From Ignavibacteriota bacterium (GTDB taxonomy: Bacteria; Bacteroidota; Ignavibacteria; Tepidaquicellales; Tepidaquicellaceae), in NCBI GenBank assembly GCA_016218085.1, contig JACREY010000012.1, forward strand, positions 186,001 to 250,000: a stretch of DNA of 64,000 nucleotides. Direction: 5' to 3'. The notes beneath the pieces are model-generated. The model saw only the letters and a list, made by a program, of their open reading frames with translations, did not search any database and was not told where the DNA came from. How positions within the stretch are numbered: position 1 is the first letter of the stretch; every line of letters begins with the position of its first letter. The position numbers and the translations under genes were made by a program. Shown here piece after piece: positions 5,537-12,900 of the stretch.

Positions 5537-5574
5537 AAAAAACCCTCCGATAACTATGTATCAGAGGGTTTTTT
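5537..5574 (-). terminator. Rho-independent terminator after tRNA-Leu
   Basis: A six-A/six-T flanked stem (CCCTC and GATA paired with TATC and GAGGG, one c/a mismatch) ends three bases from the mature tRNA 3' end. Because it has A on one side and T on the other it could stop transcription from both directions. Confidence 0.82.
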
Positions 5575-5576
5575 CG

Positions 5577-5662
5577 TGCCCGAGATCGGAATCGAACCGA
5601 TACTGCCCTTACAGGCAACAGGATTTTAAGTCCTGCGCGTCTACCAATTCCGCCACTCGGGC
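5577..5662 (-). tRNA. tRNA-Leu (anticodon UAA)
   Basis: An 86-base class II tRNA on the minus strand. The acceptor stem GCCCGAG pairs perfectly with CTCGGGC, followed by discriminator A. The anticodon stem CAGGA/TCCTG encloses CTTAAAA, giving anticodon TAA for leucine UUA codons. A long variable arm (TTGCCTGTAAGGGCAGT region) and the T-arm GGTTCGATTCC are present. CCA is not encoded (ACG follows). A TATAGT hexamer five bases upstream may be the -10 element. Two damaged copies of the 5' end and leader lie directly upstream. Confidence 0.97.
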
Positions 5663-5745
5663 GAGTGACTATACTCTTTTCAAGAACAATTTTTTTCAAA
5701 CAATCCCGATACATCGGGACGCACTACCAATTCCGCCACTCGGGC
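5663..5745 (-). repeat. Truncated tRNA-Leu repeat unit 1 (leader, hairpin, tRNA 5' end)
   Basis: This 83-base unit sits directly upstream of the intact tRNA. Read on the minus strand it starts with the first 22 bases of the tRNA (acceptor strand and D-arm: GCCCGAGTGGCGGAATTGG plus TAG). It then switches to TGCG and a TCCCGATGTATCGGGA hairpin, and continues with the same leader (TTGTTCTTGAAAAGAGTATAG) that precedes the functional gene. It has no anticodon or 3' half, so it cannot be a working tRNA. Confidence 0.9.
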
Positions 5746-5829
5746 GAGTGACTATACTCTTTTCAAGAACAATTTTATTTTCCAATGATCCCGATACATC
5801 GGGACGCACTACAAATTCCGCCACCGGGC
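5746..5829 (-). repeat. Truncated tRNA-Leu repeat unit 2 (more diverged)
   Basis: A second tandem copy of the same unit, 84 bases, with the same hairpin and leader. The tRNA-derived 5' end is decayed: a base is missing from the acceptor strand (GCCCGGTGG) and one changed in the D-loop. The order on the minus strand is unit 2, unit 1, intact tRNA, which suggests stepwise tandem duplication followed by decay. Confidence 0.87.
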
Positions 5830-11188: not shown

Positions 11189-12463
11189 ATGAAAAAGTCA
11201 TTTTTCTTTATTCTCGCCTTACTGATTTTCACAAATTCTTATACACAGTGGACTGAACAAACATCCGGAGTTACAACCGCTCTTCGTTCGGTATGCTCAA
11301 CTCCTTCCTCAAACGTAGCATGGATATGCGGAGCAAGCGGTGTTGTACTAAAAACAACAAATACAGGGACAAACTGGATTAACGTGAGTTCGGGCATTCC
11401 GACTTCAAATACATTAATCTGTATTTCAGCTGTGGATGCTAATCTGGCGCTGGTAGTCGGGTACAGCAGTTCAACAACATATATGTACCGCACGACAAAC
11501 GGCGGTGCAAACTGGTCGCTGGTTCTATCTGAAACCGGATTTTACGATGCAGTCAGCATGGTTAATTCCACAACCGGGTTTATGGCGGGGGACCCGGTCG
11601 GCGGCAGGTGGTCATTATGGAAAACGGCAAACGGCGGGGCTAACTGGGACAGTTCGGGACTGTATTTGCCAATAGTACATCCTGCCGAAGCCGGGTGGAA
11701 CAATGCAATGAGCGTTGTTTACCCGAAAATATGGATTGGCACAAATGATACAGTCGTAATTTATTCAAGCAATTTCGGAACAAGCTGGACAAGATACAAG
11801 ACAACAGGCGAAGTGAACGGCTATTCTCTCTGCTTTGACTGGGCGACAGGGCAGACGGGACTGATGGCAGGCTCGGTAGCAATGCTTCAGACTTCCAATC
11901 TTGGCAGTAACTGGTCTGCCGTTCCTATGCTCGGTACGGGAAATGTCGTGGGAATAACTTTTACAAATCTTCCTGTTGATAATTTCACATGGCCTGCGTG
12001 GTATGTGAGAACAAGTACAATGATTTACGGCAGTACAAATGGTACATCGTGGACAGCGCAATATACTGCACCTGTGGGTAATTTCAATGCAATAAGCCAG
12101 GCAAGACCCGGCAGGGGAATATGGGCAGTAAGGTCTAACGGTGGAATTTCATTTCATACTATTATTGCGGATATTAAGAAAGAAGGAAATGAAATACCCG
12201 GGAAATATGCACTCTATCAGAATTATCCGAATCCCTTCAATCCGGTTACAAATATAAAATTCCAGATTCCACGCTCCGGATATGTTACGCTGAAAGTTTT
12301 TGATGGGCTTGGAAAAGAAATGCAGACTCTGGTTGAGCAGGAATTAAAGACAGGATATTACGAGACAAAATTCAATGCGGAAAATATGCCGTCCGGGGTT
12401 TATTTCTATAAGCTGACTTCTGACGGATTTTCGGATGCGAAGAAGATGGTAATTATCAAATAG
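11189..12463 (+). CDS. Secreted YCF48/BNR-type propeller protein with T9SS sorting domain
   Basis: A 424-residue exported protein. The signal peptide is residues 1-19 (MKKSFFFILALLIF, cleavage near SYTQ). The body, about 20-330, is a propeller with T-x-x-G-x-x-W turns (NTGTNWI, TNGGANWSL, ANGGANWDS, NFGTSWT, NLGSNWSA). The last 80 residues are a T9SS sorting domain (YQNYPNPFNPVTNIKF, ending KKMVIIK). An AAGGAG Shine-Dalgarno lies seven bases before the ATG, one of the few clear ones in this window, which suggests strong translation. A surface-attached or released binding protein is the likely product; the ligand is unknown. Confidence 0.9.
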   Translation: MKKSFFFILALLIFTNSYTQWTEQTSGVTTALRSVCSTPSSNVAWICGASGVVLKTTNTGTNWINVSSGIPTSNTLICISAVDANLALVVGYSSSTTYMYRTTNGGANWSLVLSETGFYDAVSMVNSTTGFMAGDPVGGRWSLWKTANGGANWDSSGLYLPIVHPAEAGWNNAMSVVYPKIWIGTNDTVVIYSSNFGTSWTRYKTTGEVNGYSLCFDWATGQTGLMAGSVAMLQTSNLGSNWSAVPMLGTGNVVGITFTNLPVDNFTWPAWYVRTSTMIYGSTNGTSWTAQYTAPVGNFNAISQARPGRGIWAVRSNGGISFHTIIADIKKEGNEIPGKYALYQNYPNPFNPVTNIKFQIPRSGYVTLKVFDGLGKEMQTLVEQELKTGYYETKFNAENMPSGVYFYKLTSDGFSDAKKMVIIK

Positions 12464-12476
12464 ATTTTTTAGAGCT

Positions 12477-12900
12477 ATTTCACGAAGTAGCACGAAGGAA
12501 GAGCATTCACGAAGTAGCACGAAGGAAGAGCGTTCACGAAGTAACACAAAGGAAGAGCGTTCACGAAGTAGCACGAAGGAAGAGCATTCACGAAGTAGCA
12601 CGAAGGAAGAGCGTTCACGAAGTAACACGAAGGAAGAGCGTTCACGAAGTAACACAAAGGAAGAGCGTTCACGAAGTAACACGAAGGAAGAGCATTCACG
12701 AAGTAGCACGAAGGAAGAGCGTTCACGAAGTAACACAAAGGAAGAGCGTTCACGAAGTAACACGAAGGAAGAGCGTTCATGAAGTAGCACGAAGGAAGAG
12801 CATTCACGAAGTAACACGAAGGAAGAGCGTTCACGAAGTAACACAAAGGAAGAGCGTTTACGAAGTATCACAAAGGAAGAGCGTTCACGAAGTAAGAACG
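12477..12900. repeat. 27-bp tandem repeat array, about 15.5 copies
   Basis: Fifteen full units and one partial copy of a 27-base unit starting CACGAAGTAGCACGAAGG and ending AAGAGCATT or AAGAGCGTT. Units differ only at a few positions (G/A after AGTA, G/A in CACGAAG, A/G before the final TT), and the last copies are more diverged. Copies abut with no spacers, so it is not CRISPR. The unit length is a multiple of three, which leaves long open frames on the minus strand, but these show only the repeat. The motif CACGAAG occurs twice per unit and recurs inverted downstream of the GxxExxY gene. Confidence 0.97.

Follow-up and report, generated by a model that had tools for sequence, protein, structure and literature searches.

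Tandem truncated copies of tRNA-Leu(UAA) with palindromes, probable relics of a tRNA-resident GIY-YIG element

Why would a bacterial tRNA gene be preceded by two broken copies of its own 5′ end, each followed by the same palindrome? We asked this of tRNA-Leu(UAA) in an Ignavibacteriota genome (family Tepidaquicellaceae; GCA_016218085.1, contig JACREY010000012.1, forward-strand positions 186,001 to 250,000), a stretch of 64,000 nucleotides that we call the window. The initial annotation had described the gene as standing behind two tandem truncated units with its leader and a hairpin, and ARAGORN, Rfam and our copy search agree with that description.

Anatomy of the tRNA-Leu(UAA) array

The array lies on the minus strand and reads, in that direction, as a dead 5′ part, a palindrome and a spacer, the same three again, and then the intact tRNA-Leu(UAA) with its terminator. 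The intact gene spans 5576..5662 (ARAGORN; Rfam RF00005, 62.5 bits), and a terminator scan placed an intrinsic terminator-like hairpin directly after it at 5537..5574. The dead copies begin 83 and 167 bases upstream of the intact gene. The nearer unit comprises nt 1–22 of the tRNA (5724..5745), identical to the intact gene at 22/22 positions, the palindrome TCCCGATGTATCGGGA (5704..5719; pattern search and comparison with relatives) in place of the anticodon arm, and a spacer/leader that runs to the intact tRNA (5663..5703; sequence and repeat comparison). The farther unit repeats this order with a dead 5′ part (5809..5829), TCCCGATGTATCGGGA (5789..5804; pattern search) and a spacer/leader (5746..5788; sequence and repeat comparison); its dead part carries one deletion and one change and is therefore probably older than the nearer copy. 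The segment of leader and tRNA start is repeated at 98% over 56 nt.

The hairpin had been described as standing in place of the rest of the tRNA. It does follow nt 1–22, but comparison with relatives G026, G005, G007 and G019 places it in the position of the anticodon arm, with the 3′ half simply absent. The nearer spacer (5663..5703) starts with TTG, the tRNA bases that follow the anticodon arm in relatives, a match of only 3 nt. With up to one mismatch, TCCCGANNNNTCGGGA matches twice in the window, both times in the array, against 0.11 expected, and the exact 16-mer TCCCGATGTATCGGGA has three occurrences across the genome of 3.3 Mb. The third copy has the same setting beside tRNA-Leu(GAG), upstream of the gene, after nt 1–44 of that tRNA and ~30 bases before the intact gene.

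Small 5′-tRNA-like RNAs ending at the hairpins, one possibility that the initial annotation had raised, found no support. Neither array hairpin has a T run on its 3′ side, and the sole terminator-like site is the one after the intact tRNA. The leader contains no sigma-70-type match, in a scan that leaves Bacteroidota-type promoters uncovered. The region folds better than shuffled sequence (z −3.9), a value for a region that includes a real tRNA and two identical palindromes. An assembly error, also raised there, is unlikely because the array is internal to a 588-kb contig and the pattern is seen again in many other genomes, among them G025, which is a single contig.

Several readings of smaller features were dropped. 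A boxA-like or promoter meaning of the leader motif GTTCTT fell away as the motif occurs in 6/47 tRNA leaders (1.1 expected), without being confined to those of occupied tRNAs. The spacer's resemblance to the C-terminus of an ORF is a by-eye likeness too short for a test. GGTAG at the palindrome foot was weighed as a RAYT-type tetranucleotide, but palindromes lie at other tRNA positions too. Elsewhere in the window, overlapping minus-strand ORFs at 12344–12871 are built from a short tandem repeat.

The same site in related genomes

A tRNA-Leu(UAA) match was present in 28/29 genomes of the family, and 25 loci were compared. Relatives proved as informative as the initial annotation had hoped: the same site is empty in some, occupied upstream in others and occupied downstream in others again. 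Eight of the 25 loci are occupied, four upstream (the source genome G000, G006, G026 and G019) and four downstream (G005, G007, G020 and G027); the G026 array was counted from its sequence and not by the copy finder. At the threshold applied, a copy on the same strand is absent from the remaining 17 loci.

Two upstream-occupied loci are the strongest link between the ORF-less units of the window and a nuclease. In G006, a ribonucleotide-reductase-like gene is followed directly by a dead nt 1–23 with a hairpin, a GIY-YIG ORF and the intact tRNA-Leu(UAA). In G026, tandem ORF-less units adjoin one unit that bears the ORF. The palindromes of G000, G026, G005, G007 and G019 share one position but differ in sequence: pairs 6 and 7 have changed on both sides, and self-complementarity is kept.

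The same-genus genome G001 has no copy at tRNA-Leu(UAA), on a contig with an N gap nearby. A 579-bp block that runs up to the 3′ end of tRNA-Leu is 99.8% identical between G001:C39 (L319) and G005:C87 (L317), which belong to two genera, and adjoins the N gap in G001; it is probably a scaffolding or binning error. With the gap beside the block, we rejected this pair as a same-genus empty-site comparison and did not count it as evidence of insertion. Inverted tRNA-Leu(UAA) fragments lie just past the tRNA in G008 (C35:127143-127167) and G014 (C2 near 403471), both among the 17 loci, and in G014 a 3′ part of the tRNA is also found ~10 kb away.

Partial tRNA copies across the source genome

We screened the 48 distinct tRNA genes (49 Rfam matches) of the source genome for partial copies of themselves. 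Such copies accompany 11/48 genes (13 were flagged, two of which only matched the tRNA-Gly copy): Leu(UAA), Leu(GAG), Thr(UGU), Gly(UCC), Asp, Cys, Pro(UGG), Glu, Ala(GGC), Arg(ACG) and Ser(GGA). The Arg and Ser cases are weak or distant. When other tRNAs served as control queries, 6/144 matched. The same test in G001 found copies at 5/30 tRNAs.

Two of these loci combine the elements seen separately elsewhere. The intact tRNA-Asp has GIY-YIG frames on both sides. Before it come a dead 5′ part with its palindrome and then a GIY-YIG frame interrupted by a single stop codon; after it come a second GIY-YIG ORF, which is open, and then a dead 3′ part that also has a palindrome. At tRNA-Cys, two ORF-less units like those of the window, with a palindrome of a different family, lie upstream, and a GIY-YIG ORF and a dead 3′ part lie downstream.

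TCCCGA...TCGGGA was first a candidate for the sole palindrome; TCCGCC..GGCGGA, TCCCGC....GCGGGA and other families serve as well. Palindrome families are also scattered over the rest of the genome, in 18 and 41 places. At the dead 3′ copy of tRNA-Thr(UGU), the palindrome is of the TCCCGA type in G001 and of the TCCGCC type at the same site in G000. At tRNA-Leu(GAG) of G001, the palindrome persists upstream behind only nt 1–10 of the dead copy.

A clade of GIY-YIG genes resides beside tRNAs

We scanned 28 genomes of the family with Pfam PF01541, a scan made without selection for palindromes, treated 82 rows as single-domain or short, and examined 78. Of the 78 single-domain genes, 30 have an intact tRNA no more than 450 bp away and without exception share its strand; 24 lie downstream of the tRNA and 6 upstream. 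tRNA density gives a chance estimate of between one and two.

A tree of 70 GIY-YIG proteins over 90 columns has many weak forks and separates two large groups. None of the 30 clade-A rows is near a tRNA. Of the 40 clade-B rows, 31 are near an intact tRNA, and the other nine all have a tRNA piece within ~240 bases (scores 39–130, against a best score of 31 across the 29 clade-A loci tested). Clade B therefore adjoins a tRNA or tRNA piece in 40/40 cases, 31 drawn from the unselected Pfam scan and nine reached through palindrome-pattern loci, and clade A in 0/29 loci tested. The tRNA isotype is clustered on the tree, with 18 changes against a shuffled mean of 30.1 and 0/200 shuffles as low, a contrast that near-copies inflate. 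One of the GIY-YIG proteins resembles UPF0213, with SLX1 structure-specific nucleases matching at E 0.17–0.35 only, and some have weak matches to phage homing endonuclease families.

Three clade-A genes of the source genome, of ~120 aa and away from tRNAs (L164, C2:82268; L165, C8:117908; L168, C3:117233), have inverted palindromic repeats on either side, as judged by eye, and are possibly the autonomous partner of these repeats. In G009, near-exact tandem copies of a GIY-YIG unit with a tRNA-Leu(CAA) 5′ part run up to the contig end (L239, C12:1-2600); tandem copies of this kind probably cause assemblies to break at loci of this sort. At another G009 locus (L208, ~1085–1458 in the GIY orientation), a frame that by eye resembles the C-terminus of a tyrosine recombinase stops immediately upstream of a part of tRNA-Asp (nt 31–76), which is followed by a GIY-YIG ORF; by eye, this island apparently inserted at the anticodon loop.

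Palindromes replace arms of the dead tRNA copies

Dead copies accompany 17/24 GIY-adjacent tRNA loci and only 2/120 control queries, the pattern of an element-supplied half with the native half dead outside; at the threshold used, the other 7/24 loci have none. In this GIY-adjacent set, upstream copies start at tRNA nt 1–3, and downstream copies reach the 3′ end or nearly so.

Perfect palindromes (arm at least 6, loop 2–6) lie in or adjoin 32/41 dead copies, compared with 39/820 control windows of equal width taken farther out at the same loci; 9/41 dead copies have none. Among 69 palindromes by tRNA pieces, at loci partly chosen for palindromes, both junctions could be defined in 41. None of the 41 is a plain insertion: eight exactly replace the 17-nt anticodon arm, three lie within the arm and 30 replace other segments.

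Origin of the array

We consider it likely that the units in the window are ORF-less relics of a tRNA-resident element that encodes a single-domain GIY-YIG nuclease of ~80–90 aa and re-supplies the tRNA half it displaces. The nuclease would cut a tRNA gene mid-way, and repair would copy the element into the cut. The element would bring its own copy of the displaced half, with the original half left outside and dead, and one complete tRNA gene would therefore remain. A 5′-type element would leave a dead 5′ half upstream, and a 3′-type element a dead 3′ half with the terminator downstream. Simultaneously or afterwards, arms of the dead half would be replaced by short perfect palindromes of families found elsewhere in the genome. 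In the window, two 5′-type units would have been left in tandem, the ORF deleted or never present.

The link to the nuclease is strong at the level of the family and indirect for the array itself. No GIY-YIG gene lies in the 64-kb window; we therefore infer ORF loss and class the array as a relic, not as a member of the element. The anatomy, its recurrence, the association with GIY-YIG genes, the occupied and empty sites and the exchange of arms for palindromes are seen directly in the sequences; cleavage and homing by the nuclease, the sequence of events and a role for the palindrome are likewise inferred. Some points weigh against the relic reading: upstream 5′ or downstream 3′ copies are also expected from any tandem duplication with an end inside a tRNA, duplicated tRNAs could have been colonised by palindromes and by GIY-YIG genes separately, and the intact tRNA should retain the cut site, so that its escape from cutting is unaccounted for.

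One rival account holds that slippage or unequal crossing-over neutrally duplicated the leader and tRNA 5′ part in tandem, that palindromes then inserted as REP-like elements do genome-wide, and that the GIY-YIG genes are coincidental. The head-to-tail units at 83–84-base spacing and the occurrence of palindrome families in 18 and 41 other places agree with it, and the geometry alone fits. It has difficulty with the concentration of palindromes in dead copies (32/41, against 39/820 control windows), with the junctions, where none of 41 palindromes is a plain insertion and eight exactly replace the anticodon arm, and with the division of the nucleases into one clade that is at tRNAs in 40/40 cases and another in 0/29. 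We regard it as unlikely. The plainer slippage that the initial annotation had named leaves the palindromes, the GIY-YIG genes and the same structure at many tRNA genes unexplained; the array is not a slippage product standing alone but one example of a widespread arrangement. Still less probable, indeed very improbable, is that the copies are left-over attachment sites of tyrosine-integrase islands at tRNA-Leu(UAA). tRNA genes are usual targets of integrases, and the recombinase-like frame just upstream of the tRNA-Asp part at L208 would suit such a view, but there are 5′ as well as 3′ types, palindromes are present in the copies and the neighbouring ORF is GIY-YIG. In the window the copies are nt 1–22 of the tRNA, which bears out the earlier remark that this is not the usual 3′-end duplication of an attachment site; the attachment-site reading is disfavoured.

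A further account, which can hold together with the relic reading, gives the units a function: the dead copies would be transcribed and the hairpin kept for a task, either preventing the half-tRNA from misfolding or competing with the intact tRNA, or forming a regulatory 5′-tRNA-like RNA. Retained self-complementarity at tRNA-Leu(UAA) despite two-sided changes at pairs 6 and 7, the two palindrome families at one dead tRNA-Thr copy in two species of a genus, and the tRNA-Leu(GAG) palindrome that outlasts its dead copy (nt 1–10 left in G001) all speak for it, as does the fold z of −3.9, within the limits of a region that holds a real tRNA and two identical palindromes. Set against these are the hairpins without a T run or terminator, the 9/41 dead copies without a palindrome, the varying replaced segments, and the many tRNA genes, the majority, that do without such units. 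We think this account doubtful.

More speculatively, the palindromes may move by replacing DNA that itself forms hairpins, such as the tRNA arms of dead copies or helices of RNase P RNA, with tRNA-resident GIY-YIG nucleases supplying both the break and spare tRNA copies that tolerate swaps. This hairpin-for-hairpin replacement is a tentative proposal that we would not expect to hold. If true, it would amount to a bacterial mobile-hairpin system in which unrelated palindromes are exchanged at one site between species of a genus.

Relation to known systems

Short scattered palindromes, also inside genes, are familiar from REP/BIME sequences with their RAYT transposases, Rickettsia palindromic elements and fungal mitochondrial double-hairpin elements. 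What sets the present palindromes apart is that they take the place of tRNA arms at defined sites and are concentrated in the dead copies. The rtT repeats at E. coli tyrT are tandem repeats by a tRNA gene that contain a tRNA piece; theirs is a 3′ piece, with no arm-replacing palindrome and no nuclease gene, whereas the window array has a 5′ piece and a palindrome.

A close likeness is to mobile ORFs of Allomyces and Glomus mitochondria, which carry a replacement end for their host gene (atp6, atp9, cox2 or nad3), the Glomus atp9 ORF being GIY-YIG (PMC3630166). As here, an endonuclease ORF sits in a host gene, a copy of the displaced end is supplied and the native end lies dead outside. The fungal ORFs differ in that they occupy protein genes of mitochondria, encode longer endonucleases and supply only 3′ ends; the elements considered here have bacterial tRNA genes as hosts, 5′ and 3′ types, nucleases of ~80–90 aa and palindromes in the dead copies. 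SegB of phages T4 and T6 is a free-standing GIY-YIG homing endonuclease that lies by tRNA genes, cuts inside them and drives tandem amplification of the tRNA + segB segment, with a reported motif RAWTSGAAC (PMC13096335); on the other strand this motif would read close to the tRNA T-loop. A GIY-YIG gene next to tRNAs and tandem units are common to both systems, and amplification of the SegB type would, by analogy, account for the tandem units. SegB is phage-borne and amplifies whole tRNAs, and the portion of PMC13096335 drawn on here mentions neither dead halves nor palindromes. Searches of the open-licence PMC literature brought up no account of bacterial GIY-YIG genes accompanied by partial copies of tRNAs.

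If the relic reading is true, a family of GIY-YIG elements lives permanently in the tRNA genes of a large bacterial group and spares its host by returning the displaced tRNA half, as a bacterial equivalent of the mobile ORFs of fungal mitochondria. The partial tRNA genes that trouble annotation would be explained, and small GIY-YIG proteins would gain a testable target. How short bacterial palindromes arise and move could also be tested directly, because at each site we know the sequence that was replaced, a tRNA arm.

Occurrence in wider bacteria

A scan of GTDB contigs for the palindrome pattern returned at least 120 stretches. Among the matches listed, 15 contigs have a tRNA no more than 400 bp away from the match, and by eye 13 of these are dead tRNA copies with a palindrome; their contig titles include Sphingobacteriales, Saprospiraceae, Flavobacteriaceae, Indibacter, Sediminibacterium, Bacteroidales, other Bacteroidetes, Patescibacteria and Dojkabacteria. 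The remaining two of those listed are L065, in RNase P RNA, and L120, which is neither. When two GIY-YIG proteins were compared with 162 loci by tblastn, matches were confined to loci with tRNA copies, including the two tRNA-Asp loci of the source genome. TCCCGA....TCGGGA palindromes lie within RNase P RNA genes at L018, L019, L023 and L065 (Rfam RF00010 matches).
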